Below are positions 45,526-60,991 of a DNA stretch of 64,000 nt, one piece after another. Both the position numbers and the translations under genes were made by a program. Every line of letters starts with the position of its first letter. The stretch's first letter is position 1. Below the pieces are notes generated by a model that did not search any database, was not told the origin of the DNA, and worked only from the letters and a program-made list of their open reading frames with translations. The stretch is taken from positions 388,594-452,593 of the forward strand of contig NZ_LIVV01000005.1 in the NCBI RefSeq assembly GCF_001905825.1, given 5' to 3'. Source of the stretch: Streptomyces sp. CB02009. GTDB lineage: Bacteria > Actinomycetota > Actinomycetes > Streptomycetales > Streptomycetaceae.

Positions 45526-45897
45526 TTACTTCTCCTTCTTGGCGCCGTAGCGGCTGCGAGCCTGCTTACGGTTCTTGACGCCCTGCGTGTCGAGGGAACC
45601 GCGGATGATCTTGTAGCGAACACCCGGCAGGTCCTTCACACGGCCACCGCGCACGAGCACGATGGAGTGCTCCTGCAGGTTGTGACCCTCACCCGGGATG
45701 TAGGCCGTGACCTCGATGCCGGAGGTCAGACGCACACGCGCGACCTTACGGAGGGCCGAGTTCGGCTTCTTCGGGGTGGTCGTGAACACACGCGTGCAGA
45801 CGCCGCGACGCTGAGGGGAACCCTCGAGTGCGGGCGTCTTGTTCTTCTCGACCTTGTCCTGCCGGCCCTTCCGGACCAGCTGCTGGATCGTAGGCAC
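45526..45897 (-). CDS. rpsL: 30S ribosomal protein S12
   Basis: 123-residue decoding-centre protein. Residues whose change gives streptomycin resistance are wild type: Lys43 in [11 protein letters not shown], and Lys88 and Pro91 in [11 protein letters not shown]. First gene of the str operon, behind a leader containing the hairpin element shared with the S10 operon. Confidence 0.99.
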
Positions 45898-49269: not shown

Positions 49270-49433
49270 TCTCTGTCACAGTTGGTGCAGCGGCGGAGCT
49301 GCGCCCGGACGACGGGCAGCGGCTTCGCCGTTCGCCGTCCGGGCGCGCTGCCGCGCCCCGCCCCCTCCCGCGGAGCGGCCCGGGCGGCGCCCCGCACCGC
49401 CTCCCTCTTCCGAGCCCTTCGAGGAGCACCGTC

Positions 49434-49841
49434 ATGACCACTCCCCCGAGTGCGTTCCCGGACGTCGAGAAGCTGGTCGTCGACGTCCTCAAGGCCGACC
49501 CGGCACTGGCCGGCGTCACGATCGCCGCACAGGCGCCGGCCGGCTTCGACGGCACGCAGAACGCCGTCCTGGTGAACCGCCGCGGCGGCGCCTGGATCGG
49601 CGACCTGCACGTCGACAAGCCGCTGGTCGAGTTCGAGGTGTACGCGCCGACCAAGAGCGCGGCCCACGTCCTCGCCAACGCCGCCCGCCGGGCCCTGCTC
49701 GCCACCCTCGGCAAGCAGATCGGCGCCCACTTCGTCAGCGACGTCGAGGAGCAGGACGGGCCGCGCTGGATGCCCGACTACCTCTACCGGGGCGCCAACC
49801 GCTACCTCTGCGTCATCCAGCTCTCGCTGAACGTCTTCTAG
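49434..49841 (+). CDS. Phage tail terminator-like protein
   Basis: 135 residues, ATG with GAGGAG upstream. The fold pattern (helix, strands IGDLHVDKPLVEFEVY, long helix KSAAHVLANAARRALL, C-terminal strands) and size fit siphophage tail terminators that cap the tail tube where a head would attach. The assignment rests on position directly before the major tail gene more than on sequence. It is the first gene of the structural operon. Confidence 0.65.
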   Translation: MTTPPSAFPDVEKLVVDVLKADPALAGVTIAAQAPAGFDGTQNAVLVNRRGGAWIGDLHVDKPLVEFEVYAPTKSAAHVLANAARRALLATLGKQIGAHFVSDVEEQDGPRWMPDYLYRGANRYLCVIQLSLNVF

Positions 49842-49967: not shown

Positions 49968-50579
49968 ATGGCAGGAAACAACTCGGCCGAGATCCGCGTC
50001 GCCGGCACCGGCAAGCTCTACGTGGCCGACGCCGGTACCTCCGCCCCGGCCACGTTCGGCACCGACTCCGCCGCCGACTGGACCGGCGCGGGCTGGAAGG
50101 ACCTCGGCTTCACCTCCGGCGACGGCGTCACCTTCTCGAAGAAGGACAAGCTGGAGGCCATCGACTCGTGGCAGTCGGTCTCCCCGGTCCACTACATCTA
50201 CTCGAGCCGTGACCTCTCGCTGAAGTTCTCGCTGCTCCAGTTCAACGAGGACACCCTGCCCTTCTTCATGGGCGGGGACGCCGTCAAGGCGGAGCCGACG
50301 CCGGCCGTCGACACCTACCGCTACGAGATCGCCGAGCGTCCGTTCGCCGACGTGCGCGCCCTCGGCCTGGAGTTCACCGACGTCAAGGCCGGTGGCACGA
50401 CCGCGGTGAAGTACCGCTTCATCATCCCGCGCGGCCAGGTCACGGCCACCGACGACATCAAGCTGGCCCGCAAGGCGGCGTCGCAGCTGGGCGTCACCTT
50501 CTCCGCCATGTCGAAGGGCGACGGCAAGCCGCTGGCGACCTTCCTCATGAAGGACAGCCAGTACGGCGCGGCGGTCTGA
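49968..50579 (+). CDS. Major tail protein (tail tube subunit)
   Basis: 203 residues, ATG preceded by AAGGAGAA. The N-terminus has GTGKLYVADAGTSAPATF and the core GWKDLGFTSGDGVTFSKK, which recur in actinophage major tail proteins that form the tube. It precedes the frameshifted chaperone gene, as in siphophages. Flanking hairpins may protect or isolate its message, in keeping with the need for many copies per particle. Confidence 0.85.
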   Translation: MAGNNSAEIRVAGTGKLYVADAGTSAPATFGTDSAADWTGAGWKDLGFTSGDGVTFSKKDKLEAIDSWQSVSPVHYIYSSRDLSLKFSLLQFNEDTLPFFMGGDAVKAEPTPAVDTYRYEIAERPFADVRALGLEFTDVKAGGTTAVKYRFIIPRGQVTATDDIKLARKAASQLGVTFSAMSKGDGKPLATFLMKDSQYGAAV

Positions 50580-50676: not shown

Positions 50677-50967
50677 ATGGCCCGTTTCGACGTCAACGCC
50701 GCCCGCGCACAGCGACAGGAGGCCCATGGCCGCGCCTGGTCCTTCGAGCTGGACGGCGAGAGCTACACCCTTCCGACCGAACTGAGCCGGGCGACGGCCA
50801 AGGCGCTGCGCACGCTCGACGACAACGACGTGGACGGCCTGCTCGCGCTCCTGATGGGTGAGGAGCAGTTCGCCCGCTTCGAGCAGCACGACATCACGAT
50901 GCAGGACGTCGCCGCGATCCTGGAGGCCTACGGCAAGGAGACCGGGCTCGGCCTGGGGGAAGACTGA
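50677..50967 (+). CDS. Tail assembly chaperone, short form (gpG-like)
   Basis: 96 residues. A helical protein (AKALRTLDDNDVDGLLALLM, VAAILEAYGKETGLG) of the size and position of lambda gpG. Chaperones of this type hold the tape measure soluble during tail assembly and are not part of the mature particle. The last four codons carry the slippery run that allows the longer product. Confidence 0.82.
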   Translation: MARFDVNAARAQRQEAHGRAWSFELDGESYTLPTELSRATAKALRTLDDNDVDGLLALLMGEEQFARFEQHDITMQDVAAILEAYGKETGLGLGED

Positions 50968-51407
50968 GCCTCGTCGAGTTCGTCGACGAACACGCCGAGG
51001 CCCTTGAGGCGGACCTGCTCCGCCACTACTCCGCCGACCTGCTCGACTGGCACCGGGGCGAACTGTCCAGCCGTCGCCTGATGGTCATGGTCAAGCACCT
51101 GCCGCGGGACAGCGCCCTCCAGCGCGAGCTCCACGGCGAGGCCGCCGAGTGGTCGGTCACCGACCACCTGCTGGCGGCCACGGTGGACCATCTGGCCGTC
51201 TCCAACTGGATGTTCATGTGCGTCAACAGCGGCGAGGACGGCGACCAGCCCGATCCGCCGACGCCCGTCCCCCGTCCGGGCGGCCCCGACCAGGACGAGG
51301 ACCACGACGGAGCCGACGGCACGGGCACCGACGAACACGGGCGGAGCGCGCGTGCCGAGGAGAGCGCGGCAGTGTCTCCCCACGCCCTCGCCCGGTTCTT
51401 CGGGTGA
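50677..51407 (+). CDS. Tail assembly chaperone, -1 frameshift product (gpGT-like)
   Basis: Joined reading frame 50677-50961 plus 50961-51407, 243 residues. The second frame (from RLSLVEFVDE) has no credible start codon or ribosome-binding site near its beginning, starts before the first stop, and runs to an acidic Asp/Pro-rich tail ending HALARFFG. Phage G/T genes between the major tail and tape measure genes use the same -1 arrangement. It should bind the tape measure through its extension. Confidence 0.78.
50955..50989 (+). other. Programmed -1 frameshift signal
   Basis: Slippery run GGGGGAA at 50955-50961 (codons GGG GAA), then after 9 bases a stem-loop: TCGTCGA (50971-50977), loop GTTCG, TCGACGA (50983-50989). 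The zero-frame stop TGA is at 50965-50967. Spacing fits known G/GT signals. Confidence 0.72.
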
Positions 51408-51434: not shown

Positions 51435-52208
51435 TCAGGGAGCGGACTCCGGGGGCGCTTCCCGTGCTCGCTCGGCGGAGAGCTCCTTCTCCAGGGCCTT
51501 GGCCCGCTCGGACAACGACCCCCTGCGCCCCCTGCCGGGACGCGTGTCGGCGTCGTTCGCCTCGTTGGCGTCGTGGTCGCGCCGGTCGGCGTTCGGGCCG
51601 TTCTGTACGGGGACCCCGGCGAGCGGCGGCACGATCGGGCGCCCGCCCTTGCCGCGTACGACCTTCCGCACCGGCTGGGCGCTCCTGCGGGTACGGCTCT
51701 CCTGGGCGGTCACGAGGACGTCGGGGTCCGCACCCGGTTCGGGGCCCGAGGCGTGCTCGGGTTCCGGCTCGGGCCGCTGTTCGAACAGTTCGCGCTCCCT
51801 GCGGACGCGCTCCTCGGCCTCGACCACGGCGGCGGGCGGTTCGAGGAGCCGGGCGAAGGGCAGTGCGATGACCCGGGCGCCGTCCTGCCCGCTGTCGATC
51901 CGGCGATCGGGCCGGCGGATCCCCCGCGCGTCGCCCTGGCCCTGGGTGTAGGCGTCGGCGACGCGCTTCTCGTACTCCCGCCGGATACGCGGGAGTTCGT
52001 CCGACACGGCCTCGGCCCAGCCCGCGGTGAACGCGGCCGTCTCGCGGCGGTCGACCTCGGTCCGGGGGATCACGACGAGGTCCTCGGTGGCGTAGCCGTG
52101 GACCAGGACGAGCTCGGAGAGGCGTGCGAAGAGGTGGGGCAGATCAGGATGGGACGCGAGCCAGTCGACGACTCGCTCGCGCCGGTTGACACCCGGCTCC
52201 GTTTCCAT
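51435..52208 (-). CDS. Unknown protein, inverted within the tail operon
   Basis: 257 residues, no recognised family. The N-terminal ~100 residues are helical and include VDRRETAAFTAGWAEAVSDE, a motif shared with the divergent gene at 52511. The C-terminal half is charged and low in complexity (Glu/Pro, then Arg/Asp/Asn) and probably disordered. It is the only minus-strand gene inside the module, placed between the chaperone and tape measure genes, and diverges from 52511 across the SOS-like box. A regulator or DNA-binding adaptor is possible but unproven. Confidence 0.7.
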   Translation of the reverse strand: METEPGVNRRERVVDWLASHPDLPHLFARLSELVLVHGYATEDLVVIPRTEVDRRETAAFTAGWAEAVSDELPRIRREYEKRVADAYTQGQGDARGIRRPDRRIDSGQDGARVIALPFARLLEPPAAVVEAEERVRRERELFEQRPEPEPEHASGPEPGADPDVLVTAQESRTRRSAQPVRKVVRGKGGRPIVPPLAGVPVQNGPNADRRDHDANEANDADTRPGRGRRGSLSERAKALEKELSAERAREAPPESAP

Positions 52209-52394: not shown

Positions 52395-52410
52395 CCGAAC
52401 GAATGTTCCA
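52395..52410. promoter_or_regulatory. SOS (LexA) box-like site
   Basis: CCGAACGAATGTTCCA matches the actinobacterial LexA pattern TCGAACnnnnGTTCGA at 10 of 12 fixed positions. A further GTTCGAAC palindrome is at 52429-52436. The site lies in the 302-bp gap (52209-52510) between divergent genes; the rest of the gap shows no gene. Confidence 0.55.
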
Positions 52411-52510
52411 CACTCTGTTCGCACAAGAGTTCGAACAACGTGGTGCCCCCGCTCCTCACTCCGCGGCGCCGCCACACACGCACGGGCAAGCAACCGGAAG
52501 GCAGGCGTCC

Positions 52511-52723
52511 ATGACCCAGCAGGCCGAGGCATCGCGACCGCAGATCCCTCTCCAGGACCGCCTCCGCCAGCTCCTCGACGGACCCGCCGCCCTCGACAAG
52601 AGAGCGTTGCTCGGCAGCCTGTACGCCGAGGTCTCCCGCTGCGAGACCCGCGCGTACGCGGCCGGCTGGAACGACGCGCTCGCGACGGCGCGACGCGACC
52701 CCCGCCGCGGCGAGGACGCCTAG
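52511..52723 (+). CDS. Small 70-residue protein sharing a motif with the gene at 51435
   Basis: Helical protein with VSRCETRAYAAGWNDALATA, which aligns to the inverted neighbour with nine identities in twenty positions including ET, AGW and A. The first 35 residues (LQDRLRQLLDGP...) form an amphipathic helix. Function is unknown. It is followed by a strong terminator, so it forms a one-gene transcript downstream of the SOS-like box. Confidence 0.7.
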   Translation: MTQQAEASRPQIPLQDRLRQLLDGPAALDKRALLGSLYAEVSRCETRAYAAGWNDALATARRDPRRGEDA

Positions 52724-52815: not shown

Positions 52816-53829
52816 ATGACGAAAACACCCGATGATCTCTCCACCGAGATCACCGCCCTCAAGACCTACCTCACCAAGTCGGACGCCAGCCCGCTGATCA
52901 CGGAGCAATACCTCCAGAAGCAGCTCCCGGAGCAGTGGACCGAACGCTTCAAGTCGATGTACGACGAGCTCACCAAGGCGAAGAAGTCCGAGTTCCTCGA
53001 AGCCATGGGTCTCGACGGATTCGGCGCCGCCCTCGAGAAGTTCTACGAGAACCGGGAGAACCCGGACAACAAGTGGGGCTACTACCTCGCCTCGGCCGTC
53101 GTGGGCCTGATGCTCCCCGCCATCGGCCTCATCCTCGCCGCCTGGGTCATCAAGATCCAGCGCGACATCCAGCAGCTGCCGGCCCGGCTGATGGGCAACC
53201 CCAACGGCCGGGTCCTCGCCACCTCCGACACCGGCCGCGGCATCCGCCTCCAGGACCGGACCGCCGTCGAGGACCGGGAGGGGGCCGCCGCCGGCGGACT
53301 GGCCTCGCTCCCGCAGAACGCGAACTTCGACGCCCTGCGCGCCCAGCTGGAGGGGATCAACCCTCCCCTGAAGGAGTTCAACACCCAGGCCGGCCCGTTC
53401 ACGACGAAGTTCAAGGACCTGCCGAAGGCCTCCGCGATGGTCAAGGCGGCAGACGCCGTCGGAAGGATCAACACGGCCGTCAAGGAAGCCGACCCCGCCA
53501 AGATCGAGACGGTCGCCAAGGCGATCGACGCGCTCGTCAAGGCCGTGAAGGACTACGACCCCAAGAAGGTCCCGGACCCTAAGAAGCTCGAAAAGCTCAA
53601 CTCGGCCATGGTCGACGCCAACCCCACGCAGATCCAGGCGATGGCCAAGGCGACCGGGAAGCTGGCCAGCGCGCAGCGGCACTTCGATCCGAAGAAGCTC
53701 CCGAAGGCCCGCGGTCTGGAGTCGTCCGCCAGGGCGGCCGAACGGCTCGCCCGCGCCGGCGGCGACGTGGCCTCCGCGTTCAACACCCTCAAGGTCAAGG
53801 CCCAGGAGGCCGCTCAGGCCATGGCCTGA
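52816..53829 (+). CDS. Tape-measure-associated membrane/coiled-coil protein
   Basis: 337 residues, ATG with GGAAGCGGAG upstream. N-terminal helical region, then one hydrophobic segment (about 95-118, SAVVGLMLPAIGLILAAWVI), then long Ala/Lys/Asp-rich helices with loosely repeated units (KAADAVGRINTAVKEADPAK). The composition and place before two tape-measure-like genes suggest part of a split tape measure or its membrane-active portion. No enzyme motif seen. Confidence 0.6.
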   Translation: MTKTPDDLSTEITALKTYLTKSDASPLITEQYLQKQLPEQWTERFKSMYDELTKAKKSEFLEAMGLDGFGAALEKFYENRENPDNKWGYYLASAVVGLMLPAIGLILAAWVIKIQRDIQQLPARLMGNPNGRVLATSDTGRGIRLQDRTAVEDREGAAAGGLASLPQNANFDALRAQLEGINPPLKEFNTQAGPFTTKFKDLPKASAMVKAADAVGRINTAVKEADPAKIETVAKAIDALVKAVKDYDPKKVPDPKKLEKLNSAMVDANPTQIQAMAKATGKLASAQRHFDPKKLPKARGLESSARAAERLARAGGDVASAFNTLKVKAQEAAQAMA

Positions 53830-53858: not shown

Positions 53859-55058
53859 ATGGCTTTCACCAGCTCCCTCAAGAAGTCGTCCGACTCCCTG
53901 CGCAACCTCAAGACCCAGGCCACCGGCGCCGCCACCGCCGTCAAGAAGGTCGGCGACGCGGGCAACTCGGCGAACGGTCAGCTCAAGAACCTCAAGACCG
54001 GCGCCCAGGGCTCCAGCACCCAGCTCAAGAACCTCAAGACCGCCTCGGACCAGGCCGAGAAGTCGATGACCAAGGCCGGCCGGACCGCCGAGACGGCCGG
54101 CACCAAGCTCGGCAAGTACGAGTCCGGCGCCGGCAAGGCCGCCAAGGGCCAGGACAAGCTCAACAAGTCCATGAAGGGCAATCTCCTCGCCCGCCTGATC
54201 GAACTCTTCATGCCTCTCATCGAGAAGATCGTCGCCATGGCGATGCAGTCGAAGACGATGCAGAAGGTCCTGAAGAAGGCCTTCGACGCCGTGAAGACCG
54301 TGATCAGCGCGGTCATGAAGGCCATCGGCCCGATCATGAAGAAGGCCGGGCAGCTGATCAAGACGGTCTGGAACGGCATCAAGACGGCGATCTCCACCGT
54401 CGTCAAGGCCGTCGCCACCGTCATCAAGACCTACGTGACGATCTGGAAGACGGTCATCACCACGGTCATGAAGGCGATCAAGACGGTTGTCGGCAGCGTC
54501 TGGAACGGCATCAAGGCCGTCATCACCCCGGTGGTGAACTGGATCAAGAGCGCCATCCCGAACGCCTTCAGCGCCGTCAAGGACAAGATGTCCTCCATCT
54601 GGAACGGCCTCAAGGACATCGCGTCCCGCGCCTTCGAGGGCATCAAGAGCGGCGTCTCCGGCCCGATCAACGCCGTCATCGGCCTGATCAACCGGATGAT
54701 CAGGGCCGTCAACGGCGTCAAGGTCAGCGTCCCCGGCTGGGTCCCGGTCGTCGGCGGCAAGACCTTCGGCGTCAACATCCCCACCATCCCCATGCTCGCC
54801 ACCGGCGGTGTCGTCATGCCCCGCAGCGGCGGTGTGCCGGCGATCCTCGCCGAGGCCGGCGAGGCCGAGGCCGTCCTGCCGCTGTCCAAGCTGGACCGGC
54901 TGCTCGCCCTCACCGCCCGGCGCGCCCGCATGAGCGCGCAGCTCGGGGGCGGCAACGGCGGCGCCGGGCTGCACATCGAGCACTACCACGCGGCCCGCAC
55001 CAGTGACCCGCAGTCCACGGCGGACGCGCTGATGTACCTGGCGAAGGCGCGCGGATGA
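53859..55058 (+). CDS. Tape measure-like protein 1
   Basis: 399 residues with a perfect ribosome-binding site (AAAGGAGG). N-terminal Lys/Ala/Gly/Ser-rich helices, a hydrophobic middle (LLARLIELFMPLIEKIVAMA) and repeated amphipathic SVWNGIKAVI-type segments, typical of phage tape measures. The end has the conserved tape-measure motif MLATGGVVMPRSGG...AEAGEAEAVLPLSKL. It is short for a single tape measure. Its stop overlaps the start of the next gene (ATGA). Confidence 0.78.
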   Translation: MAFTSSLKKSSDSLRNLKTQATGAATAVKKVGDAGNSANGQLKNLKTGAQGSSTQLKNLKTASDQAEKSMTKAGRTAETAGTKLGKYESGAGKAAKGQDKLNKSMKGNLLARLIELFMPLIEKIVAMAMQSKTMQKVLKKAFDAVKTVISAVMKAIGPIMKKAGQLIKTVWNGIKTAISTVVKAVATVIKTYVTIWKTVITTVMKAIKTVVGSVWNGIKAVITPVVNWIKSAIPNAFSAVKDKMSSIWNGLKDIASRAFEGIKSGVSGPINAVIGLINRMIRAVNGVKVSVPGWVPVVGGKTFGVNIPTIPMLATGGVVMPRSGGVPAILAEAGEAEAVLPLSKLDRLLALTARRARMSAQLGGGNGGAGLHIEHYHAARTSDPQSTADALMYLAKARG

Positions 55059-56305
55059 GTGCCGTCGCGGCCTTCCCGAACCCGTTCGCCGGCGGTGTCC
55101 TGCCGGCGATGAGCGCTCTCAGGAGCGGTCTCGGTCAGGCGGGCGACGGACTGAAGCGGCTCAGGGACGACGCCCTGCGCACGGCCGGCGGCATGGACCG
55201 GTTCGCCGCCGCCCTGCGCACCGCCGGCACCTCCGTACGCGGCCTCGGCACCGGTTCGTCCGGCGCCGCGGACTCCGTCCGGCGCATCCAGCGCTCCAAG
55301 GCCGCCACCGGCGTGGGGAAGATCGGCACCGCGGCGGGCAGGGCGAGAACGGCCACCGGGAGGCTCGGCCCCGCGGTCGGCGGCGTCCTCGCCCTCCTCC
55401 TCCCGCTGCTGCCCGTCGCCGATGTCGTCACCCGGCTGATGGACACCTACGGCACCGTCATGACCGTCGCCTCCGTCGCCATGACCGGCGTCAACCTCGC
55501 CATGCGGGCCAACCCGATCGGCTTCCTCGCCGGCATCCTCGTACCGGTCGCCGCCTGGCTCATCGAGTACGCGATGCAGAGCGAGACCGGCCAGAAGATC
55601 ATGCGGCAGGTGTTCCAGGCCGCGCTGAAGGGCTTCCAGTCGGTCTGGACGTTCCTGCAGCCGGTCCTCAAGCTCATCGGGCAGGCCGTCGGAACGTACG
55701 CCAAGGGGTACCTGGCCCTGTTCACGGGCGCCCTGAAGATCGTCGGCTCCGGCATCAGCGGCATCAGCAGGGTCCGCACCACCGTCACCTCGGCCTCGAA
55801 CGCCCTGCGCGGCATCGCCTCGCGCACGATGGGCGGGATCAAGAACGCCGTCAAGCCGGTGCTCTCCTTCGTCACCGACAAGATCCCGGGCTTCTTCCGG
55901 CACGCGAAGGACGCCGTGGCCAGGGCGCTGCGGGGCATGGGCGAGCTGATCAAGGGCGCGCTGAGCGCCGTGCTCGGCGTCGTCAAGGGCCCGATCAACG
56001 GCCTGATCGCCTTCGCCAACTGGATCATCGACGGGCTCAACAAGCTGAGCGTGAACATCCTCGGCAAGAAGTTCGGCGTCGACATCGACAAGATCCCGAT
56101 GCTCGCCGAGGGCGGTGTCGTCTTCCCCGGCGCCGACAGCGCGCCGCGCATCGACCCGCTCACCGTGCTGGAGAACCGGCGCGTCCCGGCCCTCACCGAG
56201 ACTCCCCGGCAGCCCCACCGCATCGCGGAGTTCCACGAGGAGCCCGGCGCCGGCCCGCGGTCGACCGCCGAGGACCTGCTCTTCCTCGCCGGCGCCCACG
56301 GCTGA
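55055..56305 (+). CDS. Tape measure-like protein 2 (paralogue)
   Basis: 416 residues, translationally coupled to the previous gene. Helical N-terminus, a hydrophobic core with MRANPIGFLAGILVPVAAWL (the NPIG motif common in tape measures), then helices similar to those of protein 1, and the matching end IDKIPMLAEGGVVFPG with RSTAEDLLFLAGAHG (compare QSTADALMYLAKARG). A diverged tandem duplicate; the acidic-glycine part of the terminal motif is replaced. Confidence 0.75.
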   Translation: MSAVAAFPNPFAGGVLPAMSALRSGLGQAGDGLKRLRDDALRTAGGMDRFAAALRTAGTSVRGLGTGSSGAADSVRRIQRSKAATGVGKIGTAAGRARTATGRLGPAVGGVLALLLPLLPVADVVTRLMDTYGTVMTVASVAMTGVNLAMRANPIGFLAGILVPVAAWLIEYAMQSETGQKIMRQVFQAALKGFQSVWTFLQPVLKLIGQAVGTYAKGYLALFTGALKIVGSGISGISRVRTTVTSASNALRGIASRTMGGIKNAVKPVLSFVTDKIPGFFRHAKDAVARALRGMGELIKGALSAVLGVVKGPINGLIAFANWIIDGLNKLSVNILGKKFGVDIDKIPMLAEGGVVFPGADSAPRIDPLTVLENRRVPALTETPRQPHRIAEFHEEPGAGPRSTAEDLLFLAGAHG

Positions 56306-57347: not shown

Positions 57348-58541
57348 ATGACCGTACGGGCCGCCTGGCTGCATCCGACCGGCCAGACCCGCGAGGACAC
57401 CCGGATCGCGCTGTCCGCGCTCCTCACCCCGAACGGGCAGAGCGCCGCGGAGACCCCGCTGCGCTCGCGCCCCGGCATCGTGCCCGGCGGCCTGGTGCTG
57501 ACCGGCACGTCGGCGATGGAGTGCTCCGTCGGCACCGGCCGGGCCGTCGTCCAGGGCAGCGACACCGCCCAGGGCGCGTACATGATCGCGGTGACCTCCC
57601 CCGAGACCCTGACCATCGCGGACGGCGATCCGCAGTACGGCCGGATCGACCTGATCGAACTGGCCGTCCTCGACGACGCGTACGACCGCAGCGGCGCCAC
57701 CGGGGCCGTGATCCGGCTGGTCAAGGGCACCCCCGCGGCCACCCCGGCCGTTCCCCTCTCGGGCCCCGGCAGCGCCTTCCCGCTCTACACCGTCTCGGTG
57801 CCGGCCGGCACTTCGGCCGGCACCGGCGGCGTCAAGTGGACCACCGCGGGCGTCGTCACCACCCTGCACTACCCGATGACCGCGCTCGGCGGCATCATCC
57901 CGACCAGCGGCTTCAAGGGCGCCTACGTCGGCCAGTACCGGGACGTCGCCGGCCTGCTCCAGCGCTGGGACGGCACCGCCTGGGTCTCGTACGCGAAGCC
58001 GATCGGCGGCATCGCCCCGCACGGGACGATGACGACCGGCGCGTACACCGGCCAGTACCGCGACAACGCCGGTGTCCTGCAGCGCTGGGACGGTGCGGCC
58101 TGGCAGTACGCGGAGGGCAGGGCGGCGGTCCTGTTCAGCGTCTCGCAGACGTCGATGCAGAGCGTGCCGGCCGGCACCTGGACGCCGATCACCCTGCAGA
58201 ACGTCGACATCGACGACTTCACCGGCTGGAACGGCACCGACAGCTTCGTCGTACCGCGCACCGGCTGGTGGCGGGTCTCCGGCCACGTCGCCTGGAACGG
58301 CGACTCCGCCACCGGCGTGCGCGGCGCCCGCATCCACCTCGGCGGCGTCGGCGTACCCCGGATGACCTGGCTGGGCCCGGCGTCCACCGGCGCCGTCACC
58401 GTCGGCGGCCAGGGCCTGGTCAAGCTCACCGCGGGCAACGTCCTGCAGCTCGCCGGCTACCACAACCACACGGCCGCCGTCCGGACCCTCGGCGGCTCGG
58501 GCTACTACAGCAACCTGTCCGCCCAGTGGATCAGGTCCTGA
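57348..58541 (+). CDS. Tail fibre / receptor-binding protein 1
   Basis: 397 residues. The ~180-residue N-terminal domain (LHPTGQTREDTRIALSALL, IADGDPQYGRIDLIELAV) is shared with the next two genes. Two repeats GQYRDxAGxLQRWDGxAW follow. The C-terminal ~130 residues are unique and look like a C1q/TNF-type jelly roll (PAGTWTPITLQNVDIDDFTG, GWWRVSGHVAWNG), a common receptor-binding tip. Confidence 0.8.
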   Translation: MTVRAAWLHPTGQTREDTRIALSALLTPNGQSAAETPLRSRPGIVPGGLVLTGTSAMECSVGTGRAVVQGSDTAQGAYMIAVTSPETLTIADGDPQYGRIDLIELAVLDDAYDRSGATGAVIRLVKGTPAATPAVPLSGPGSAFPLYTVSVPAGTSAGTGGVKWTTAGVVTTLHYPMTALGGIIPTSGFKGAYVGQYRDVAGLLQRWDGTAWVSYAKPIGGIAPHGTMTTGAYTGQYRDNAGVLQRWDGAAWQYAEGRAAVLFSVSQTSMQSVPAGTWTPITLQNVDIDDFTGWNGTDSFVVPRTGWWRVSGHVAWNGDSATGVRGARIHLGGVGVPRMTWLGPASTGAVTVGGQGLVKLTAGNVLQLAGYHNHTAAVRTLGGSGYYSNLSAQWIRS

Positions 58542-58581
58542 CCCCGCCCCCCACCCCGCACCTCCCCGATTGGAGAACCCC

Positions 58582-59802
58582 GTGAACCTGCGCAGCAGCT
58601 GGGTCGCCGAGACCGGCCAGACCCGCGAGGACACCCGCCTGAACCAGGTCGGCGCGACCACCATGATCAACCCCGTCCAGGTCCGCTCCGGCGTCCTGCC
58701 GGGCTCCTACGACGGCAAGTACCGGCTGGCCGGCTTCTGGATGGACAAGGCCTCGGCCATGACGGCGATCGTCTCCGAGGGCCGGGCCGTCATCCAGGGC
58801 GACATCTCCCAGGGCGTCTACCCGGTGGCCCTGCCCGCATCCGCGCAGGTCACCTTCGCCGCGGGCGACGCCCAGTACGGCCGGATCGACCTGGTCGTCC
58901 TGAGGATCTACGACAACCTCTACGACGGAAGCACCCGCAACGAGGCGAAGGTCGAGATCGTCCAGGGGGTGCCGGGCCAGGCCCCCAAGGCGCCCGCGGC
59001 CCCGCCGCGCAGCCTGCCGCTGTACGAGGTGACCGTCCCGGCCGGCGCCAGCGGAGGCAACGGCGGCATCCCGTGGAACACCTCCCTGAAGGACCTGCGC
59101 ACGCCGGTCGTCGCGCTCGGCGGCATCCTCCCGGTCGAGGGCCCGGTCCTGCCGGGCGCCCACCCCGGCCAGTACCAGGACACCGCCAACAACCAGCTGC
59201 AGCGCTGGGACGGCGGCCAGTGGGTCGCCTACCCGGAGGCCCTCGGCGGTATCGTCCCGACCTCCGTCAACGCCACGACCGCGGGCAGCTACACGGGCCA
59301 GTACCGGGCCACCGCGGCCGGTCCGATCCAGCGCTGGAGCGGCGCGGCGTGGGCCCCGGCCTACCCGGGGCCGTACTTCAACGACTCGCTGGACGGCGGG
59401 TACACCCTCTCGACGACCTTCGTGAACACCCTGGTCGACCGGGCGGAGAACCCGCTGTCGCTGAGCTTCGTCGCCCCGGAGAGCCGGCAGGCGATCCTCT
59501 CCTTCGGTTCGAAGACCGAGCTGTCCCTGAACTCGGGCACCACCGGCGTCGCCAGCTCCGCGCTGATGTGCGTCCGCATCACCCAGGGCGCCACCGTCTT
59601 CCGCGAGGTGGACGACGAACTCTCCGCCTTCGCCTCCAAGTCGTCCAGTGCCACCGACGCCGTGTCCGTCTCGACGACGCAGCGCCTGTCCGGCCTGACG
59701 CCCGGCGCGACCTACACGGTCACCGCGTACTACCGGAGCACCAACGCCAACGTGCGGGCCTGGTTCGACAACTCGTTCCTCCAGGTCACCCCGCAGTACT
59801 GA
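58582..59802 (+). CDS. Tail fibre / receptor-binding protein 2
   Basis: 406 residues from GTG at 58582 preceded by TTGGAGAA. The shared N-domain begins NLRSSWVAETGQTREDTRLN and includes GATTMINPVQVRSGVLPG. Two GQY...LQRW repeats follow. The C-terminal domain is unrelated to those of the other fibres, with LSLSFVAPESRQAILSFGSK and an end like a fibronectin-type strand set (PGATYTVTAYYRSTNANVRA). Confidence 0.8.
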   Translation: MNLRSSWVAETGQTREDTRLNQVGATTMINPVQVRSGVLPGSYDGKYRLAGFWMDKASAMTAIVSEGRAVIQGDISQGVYPVALPASAQVTFAAGDAQYGRIDLVVLRIYDNLYDGSTRNEAKVEIVQGVPGQAPKAPAAPPRSLPLYEVTVPAGASGGNGGIPWNTSLKDLRTPVVALGGILPVEGPVLPGAHPGQYQDTANNQLQRWDGGQWVAYPEALGGIVPTSVNATTAGSYTGQYRATAAGPIQRWSGAAWAPAYPGPYFNDSLDGGYTLSTTFVNTLVDRAENPLSLSFVAPESRQAILSFGSKTELSLNSGTTGVASSALMCVRITQGATVFREVDDELSAFASKSSSATDAVSVSTTQRLSGLTPGATYTVTAYYRSTNANVRAWFDNSFLQVTPQY

Positions 59803-59848
59803 GTCCGCACGGCCGCCACCCGACCGCCCCTACCTCCAGGAGAACCGC

Positions 59849-60991
59849 ATGCCCGTTCGCTCCGGATGGCTGATGCCCACCGGGCAGACCCGCCAGAACA
59901 CCCGCATCACCAACATCGGCGCCACCACCCCCGTCAACCCGCTCGGCGTCCGGTCCGGCGTCCTGCCCGGCACGTACGACGGCAAGTTCCGGGTCGGCGG
60001 CCTGTGGATGAGCTCCTCCGGCCCGATGACGGCCACCGTCTACCACGGCAAGGCCGTCATCCAGGGCGGCACCACCGACGGCGCCTACCCGGTCGCCCTC
60101 GACGAGGACATCACCCTCACCTTCGCCGACGGCGACCCGCTCAACGACCGCGTCGACCTCGTCGTGGTCCGCGTCTACGACAACGACGTGGACGCCCTCG
60201 GCAAGCACGAGGCAGCCGTCGAGATCGTGAAGGGCACCCCGGCCGCCACCCCGGCCGCCCCGGCGGCCCCCGCCCGCTCCCTGATCCTGTTCACGGTGAA
60301 GGTCAAGAAGGGCGCCTCCGCCGGCACCGGCGGCATCGACTGGGCGGGCGGCGCCACCACCGACCTGCGCACCACGACCGTCTCCGCCGGCGGCATCCTG
60401 CCCGTCTACAACAACGCAGGCGTGGCCGGCGGCTACCCGGGCCAGTACCAGGACAACGACAACGCCCACTTCCTCCAGCGCTGGGACGGCACCGCCTGGG
60501 TCGCCTACCCCAAGGAGATCGGCGGCATCGCGCCCAGCGGCACGATCACCACCGGCAGCTACAACGGCCAGTACCGCGACTACAACGGCGGCCAGCTCCA
60601 GCGCTGGAACGGCAGCGCCTGGACGGCCTACCAGCCGCCCGTCGAGAACGAGACCACCACCACCGGCGCCACGGCCCTGGCCAACTGGTCGGTCGTCTCG
60701 TTCAGCGGCCGCAGGACCAAGAGCGGGCTGTGCACCGTCACGGTCACCGTCACCCGCACCGGCGCCCAGGTCAACGTCGAGAGCGCCGGCAACCTGCCCG
60801 ACGAGCCGCTCTGCACCCTGCCGGCCGGCTGGCGCCCGTCCATGGACTTCGAGGCCTCGGCCTCCGACGGCTTCGGCGACGGCGGCGCCAACATCTACAC
60901 CAACGGCCAGGTCAACCTGCGGACCTGGTCCTCCAACGGCGCTCTCGTCCCCGGACGGAACATCCGCGTCTCCGCCACCTACGTCCTGTAA
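59849..60991 (+). CDS. Tail fibre / receptor-binding protein 3
   Basis: 380 residues. N-domain MPVRSGWLMPTGQTRQNTRI with GATTPVNPLGVRSGVLPGTY is closest to fibre 2. The GGYPGQYQDNDNAHFLQRWD and GSYNGQYRDYNGGQLQRWNG repeats are clear. The third kind of C-terminal domain begins after ENETTTTGATA and has a Cys pair (SGLCTVTVTV and EPLCTLPAGW). It is followed 14 bases later by the hub gene. Confidence 0.8.
   Translation: MPVRSGWLMPTGQTRQNTRITNIGATTPVNPLGVRSGVLPGTYDGKFRVGGLWMSSSGPMTATVYHGKAVIQGGTTDGAYPVALDEDITLTFADGDPLNDRVDLVVVRVYDNDVDALGKHEAAVEIVKGTPAATPAAPAAPARSLILFTVKVKKGASAGTGGIDWAGGATTDLRTTTVSAGGILPVYNNAGVAGGYPGQYQDNDNAHFLQRWDGTAWVAYPKEIGGIAPSGTITTGSYNGQYRDYNGGQLQRWNGSAWTAYQPPVENETTTTGATALANWSVVSFSGRRTKSGLCTVTVTVTRTGAQVNVESAGNLPDEPLCTLPAGWRPSMDFEASASDGFGDGGANIYTNGQVNLRTWSSNGALVPGRNIRVSATYVL

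Follow-up and report, generated by a model that had tools for sequence, protein, structure and literature searches.

A putative -1 ribosomal frameshift in the tail assembly chaperone gene of a head-less phage tail cassette of Streptomyces chromosomes

The slippery heptamer of the tail chaperone gene pair G/GT of phage lambda is GGGAAAG. Tail assembly requires the two products of the lambda frameshift in a ratio of about 30:1 (PMC5009743). A different heptamer, GGGGGAA, has been reported as the ‘fivetwo’ motif of SEA-PHAGES sites numbering about a thousand; there the second tRNA is described as re-pairing with GGA by means of G.U (PMC10885494). The same heptamer has been reported at the tail chaperone of corynephage phi16, for which an internal Shine-Dalgarno (SD) sequence and a downstream pseudoknot were proposed (PMC5506516). 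Within Streptomyces, the tail-like particles described in the papers found here, viz., the SLPs, are contractile eCISs (PMC8505568). The site described below belongs to this already known kind of frameshift, which is ordinary in tailed phages; what is less ordinary is its home in a head-less cassette.

The window analyzed here is a stretch of 64,000 nucleotides from Streptomyces sp. CB02009, with positions counted from its first nucleotide. The upstream (G-like) tail assembly chaperone ORF (50677-50967, + strand) encodes 96 aa in the zero frame and ends with the stop TGA at 50965-50967. Its 3' end reads CTG_GGG_GAA_GAC_TGA, with the heptamer G_GGG_GAA (50955-50961, +) in frame, GGG in the P site, and GAA in the A site; the original prediction of GGGGGAA immediately ahead of the zero-frame stop is thereby borne out. 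A 6-nt spacer, GACTGA (50962-50967, +), follows, which includes this stop and reads GRCTGA in 84/87 aligned loci. The downstream (T-like) part (50961-51407, +) is read only in the -1 frame and, as had also been claimed, is open and devoid of a start of its own: it runs for 148 codons past the shift up to 51407, giving a predicted fusion of 243 aa, and its earliest ATG, GTG, or TTG past the junction is at 51081, i.e., 40 codons in, with none before codon 41. Five relatives have a -1 frame that opens just 12 codons upstream of the junction (L038, L050, L051, L060, and L066), and no start was found in that frame ahead of the junction in any of them.

Both parts are recognizable as chaperone components. 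The upstream part matches the tail assembly chaperone family phrog_10551 over residues 1-95 of its 96 (E = 2e-28), the downstream part matches the C-terminal parts of the tail assembly chaperones phrog_5813, 3656, and 393, and the match of the fusion to phrog_5813 (residues 21-215) spans the junction. A sequence search against solved structures gave no match. Most loci also display an FF motif at the C-terminus of the -1 part. The ORF order is that of the lambda G/GT type, with the chaperone parts between the tail tube (49968-50579) and the tape measure (from 53859), and additional small ORFs intervening between chaperone and tape measure; further features of that type found here are a conserved in-frame heptamer at the overlap, chaperone homology of both parts, and the lack of an independent second start. 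The heptamer itself deviates from the canonical X_XXY_YYZ pattern of tandem slippage, in that G_GGG_GAA is an XXXXXYY sequence, i.e., the ‘fivetwo’ variant.

A search for orthologs in 392 genomes of the same genus, Streptomyces, recovered the chaperone in 87 of them, at 88 loci. The original prediction had proposed an alignment of these at the nucleotide level as a check, and it came out in favor of the slippery run: GGGGGAA is kept in frame in 87/88 loci, at protein identities down to 52%, is invariant in the 87/87 aligned loci, and is followed in every one of these by a second part in the -1 frame. The odd one out, L088, is a distant relative (33% identity) with GGGAAAC, an XXXYYYZ heptamer, at the same place. 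In a second collection, which shares some genomes with the first, 79/81 loci keep the heptamer. The rarity of the heptamer was rejected as an argument, as bare GGGGGAA occurs four times in the window against 10 expected; its presence is therefore no evidence by itself, and it is the conservation that exceeds chance. Codons 94 (GGG) and 95 (GAA) are retained in 84/84 loci with no changes on the tree, although each makes up only about 14-15% of its own synonymous family (GGG about 15% of the Gly codons here). In comparison to the absence of changes at the third base of the codon 94 GGG, the Gly codons 18, 54, and 61 show 11-29 changes; those closer to the heptamer, codons 86 and 90, are also slow, with 2 and 4 changes, respectively. 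The clean synonymous tests are the third bases of codon 93 (the first G of the heptamer) and of codon 94, because neither reading frame forces them, and both are invariant. The last A of GAA (50961) is less clean, doubling as the first base of a conserved Arg codon (AGR) in the -1 frame, which explains part of the conservation at this position.

Synonymous variation is also suppressed upstream of the heptamer, across 50929-50954 (zero-frame codons 85-93), a stretch that includes at codon 90 a second near-invariant rare GGG (79/84 loci). An AAGGAG sequence (50935-50940, +), 14 nt upstream of the heptamer, is a candidate SD-like internal stimulator; it is exact in 63/84 loci and is lacking in a divergent clade, and common codons for Lys-Glu would explain it as well.

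The coding signal switches frame at the heptamer. Using pN/pS values that were averaged over 600 random pairs without correction, and hence indicate the frame and not rates, we obtained 0.49 for the zero frame and 2.01 for the -1 frame upstream of the heptamer, as against 0.32 for the -1 frame, 1.24 for the zero frame, and 2.56 for the third frame downstream of it. Purifying selection past the heptamer is confined to the -1 frame. This bears on the possibility that the second part is made separately from an internal start, such as the ATG at 51081, reached by reinitiation or coupling, given that ATG, GTG, and TTG codons are present in the -1 frame from there onward. However, the 40 residues preceding 51081 (RLSL..EHAEALEADLLRHY..DLLDWHR) are among the most conserved and are under purifying selection solely in the -1 frame, and the position of the 51081-type start is not kept among orthologs; accordingly, we regard separate synthesis as very unlikely. 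That the two halves formerly were one frame, now split by gene decay or a sequencing error, is more improbable still, to the point of being negligible. A few loci are indeed visibly decayed, such as L086 and L087, in which the -1 part is truncated and of which the one that was examined more widely has no terminator or tube match; but the same two-frame layout and heptamer recur in more than 80 separate assemblies, with both frames under purifying selection. Certain other carriers also deviate from the standard arrangement: the zero-frame stop near the site is lost in L066, as well as in L086 and L087, L171 has one G fewer in the run, and the second part is missing from L179.

Downstream of the heptamer lies a conserved hairpin (50968-51001, +) of 13 bp with two 1x1 mismatches and a 4-nt loop, whose base is 6 nt past the heptamer and which is composed of an outer stem, GCCTCG/CGAGGC, followed by inner stems of 2 bp and 5 bp. 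It is the minimum free energy (MFE) structure of the 40 nt that follow the heptamer (-18.2 kcal/mol, z = -2.29, MFE frequency 0.90). The RNAalifold consensus recovers the hairpin, which is paired in 95.9% of the cells of the alignment, and its outer stem is part of the MFE structure in 86/87 loci; the mean 40-nt MFE after the heptamer is -21.4, versus -8 to -15 in the remainder of the gene. Only this local 40-nt hairpin stands out, as the whole 121 nt after the heptamer, when folded, shows no excess stability (z = 0.26). Covariation amounts to a single base pair, which is changed from U-A to C-G in 24 sequences, and to few events (about two changes on one side and four on the other). The stronger sign of conservation of the hairpin is the resumption of synonymous drift at its 3' end: third-position changes in the -1 frame number 0-4 in the hairpin arms and 11 and 21 in and beside the loop, and the first such position beyond the 3' arm has 19 of them, up from 0. 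These patterns point to the hairpin as the probable stimulator of the frameshift.

The structure named in the original prediction was a different one, a 7-bp stem, TCGTCGA/TCGACGA. It does exist as a perfect inverted repeat (50971-50977/50983-50989) beginning 9 nt past the heptamer, but it is not the conserved structure, and we rejected it as the stimulator: it pairs in 76.8% of the cells, against 95.9% for the longer hairpin, none of its pairs shows changes in both partners, and pairing is better in one slid control. Since this stem is perfect in the present sequence and in some relatives, a genuine frameshift stimulated by it (50971-50989), or by no structure at all, can be entertained; with the longer hairpin as the MFE structure, we consider it unlikely. 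The hairpin is also pertinent to a change of frame by the polymerase, i.e., transcriptional slippage on the G5 run in place of ribosomal slippage. A homopolymer run is present and such slippage would yield the same downstream protein; however, five Gs are short for productive transcriptional slippage, and neither the conserved AA after the run nor a hairpin at ribosomal spacing would be necessary for it, which makes this origin of the frame change highly improbable.

Thus, the heptamer, the frame switch, the startless -1 part, and the family match across the junction support the original prediction of a -1 programmed frameshift in the chaperone gene, and, judging from the sequences, a -1 programmed ribosomal frameshift of the lambda G/GT type very probably joins the two chaperone parts. 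We infer the slippage itself, how often it occurs, its stimulation by the hairpin, and the division of labor between G and GT as follows. Ribosomes translating the 96-aa chaperone would arrive at G_GGG_GAA adjoining the stop, where the 13-bp hairpin, with its base 6 nt downstream, would delay a fraction of them. The P- and A-site tRNAs would then slip back by one base, with tRNA-Gly on GGG and tRNA-Glu on GGA, the latter with a G.U pair in the middle position, and the slipped ribosomes would go on in the -1 frame to produce the 243-aa fusion. By analogy to lambda, the short form might coat the tape measure, the rare long form might recruit tube subunits, and the ratio of the two might set tail assembly. 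The original prediction had cautioned that the A-site re-pairing of GAA onto GGA is imperfect. Indeed, it needs a G.U pair and the efficiency may be low on this account, but this is less of a concern than the prediction suggested, since tRNA-Glu re-pairs with GGA via G-C, G.U, and A-U, and since GGGGGAA has already been reported for tail chaperones.

The chaperone gene is part of a head-less cassette of the siphovirus type (46234-64500, about 46.2-64.5 kb), with an HTH repressor and a WhiB-like regulator. Its gene order is HTH, WhiB-like, tail terminator, tube, chaperone, tape-measure-like ORFs, distal tail protein, three fiber-like paralogs, minor tail protein, and amidase. The terminator is the first upstream tail gene (49431-49841, +; phrog_123, E = 6.7e-20) and is followed by the tail tube, or major tail, protein (49968-50579, +; PF25681, E = 1.2e-58; phrog_117). 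Two short tape-measure-like ORFs of 399 and 416 aa (53859-56305, +; phrog_1535, E = 9e-27, and phrog_3981, E = 3e-21) are the likely clients of the chaperone. They are preceded by an ORF of 337 aa with no family match (52816-53829), and there is no single long tape measure; relatives such as L125 have room for one tape-measure-like ORF only, in which case a very short tail would be expected. The interval from chaperone to tape measure also holds two ORFs of unassigned function (51435-52208, - strand, and 52403-52723, + strand), in which a short common stretch is discernible by eye (ETRAYAAGWNDALA and ETAAFTAGWAEAVS). The three tandem fiber-like paralogs (57348-60991), all of phrog_3398, often show lower identity between genomes than the adjoining distal tail protein.

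No match to capsid, portal, or terminase (for the last of which one family was tried) was found in 46.2-64.7 kb, which yielded tail families only, a head-less call that carries the caveat that the category of phrog_3398 is ‘head and packaging’. The cluster thus has the gene content of an F-type tailocin, i.e., non-contractile tail genes and none for capsid, portal, or terminase. In the same genome, a separate phage region on another contig, C35, has portal and capsid genes (C35:102862-105871).

On the chromosome, the cassette is flanked by rpsL (45526-45897) and rpoC (from 64.74 kb). rpsL lies at most 9 kb upstream in 23 of the 40 carriers examined at 20 kb, and in all 10 of the rpsL-adjacent carriers that were checked further rpoC is on the other side. 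The gap between rpoC and rpsL in ten genomes that lack the chaperone measures 0.45-7.9 kb and contains no match to tail genes. The cassette is not tied to this position, since other carriers harbor it at different places. We found no paper on the cassette in the open-licence part of PubMed Central.

The conservation suggests that the cassette might make a particle. We give about even chances to a broader proposal, in which the frameshift is in the service of a hitherto undescribed tail particle, head-less, non-contractile, and akin to F-type tailocins, which in Streptomyces is often encoded at one chromosomal site, between rpoC and rpsL, under its own HTH and WhiB regulators and has kept a phage frameshift signal long after the loss of the head. 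A frameshift is a sensitive test of function: the retention of the slippery site, the frame switch, and the hairpin across Streptomyces chromosomes, in a cassette that lacks head genes, argues that the cells still assemble tails, in support of the original inference that tail assembly remains under selection. Moreover, the locus offers a clean comparative case for GGGGGAA, a poorly tested shift site, and for the question of which structure stimulates it.

Searches of phage, plasmid, and viral-contig collections gave no close relative. The sole near match among the viral contigs is one of 11 kb (L211) with the same regulator-plus-tail gene layout, which is probably a cut from a host genome. More distantly, the Streptomyces phages Kromp and VWB are closely alike in layout, each having G_GGG_GAA in frame and, about 6 nt farther on, a long hairpin; the downstream part in VWB is homologous to the -1 part and the Kromp tube protein to the tube protein of the present locus. 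However, their zero-frame stop lies 21 nt past the heptamer as opposed to 3 nt here, and both are complete phages with head genes. Phage HunterDalle likewise has an in-frame heptamer followed by a strong hairpin. A homologous chaperone pair with an in-frame slippery site is also found in Streptomyces phage Nesbitt and at locus L088, which differ in having the heptamer GGGAAAC and a chaperone that is, over part of its length, about 32% identical. The SEA-PHAGES and phi16 sites share both the heptamer and the gene but are those of phages, and the phi16 structure is a proposed pseudoknot, in contrast to the predicted hairpin of the present locus. Among particles, the contractile SLPs are distinct from the cassette with its non-contractile-type tail genes, whereas F-type (non-contractile) tailocins resemble it in gene content, with flexible-tail genes, an amidase, and the absence of head genes. 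Finally, as in lambda gpG/gpGT and its phage relatives, the chaperone lies between the tube and tape-measure genes and comprises a short form and a predicted -1 fusion with a heptamer near the stop; unlike the lambda system, it has GGGGGAA, a conserved hairpin after the heptamer, and a surrounding cluster without head genes.
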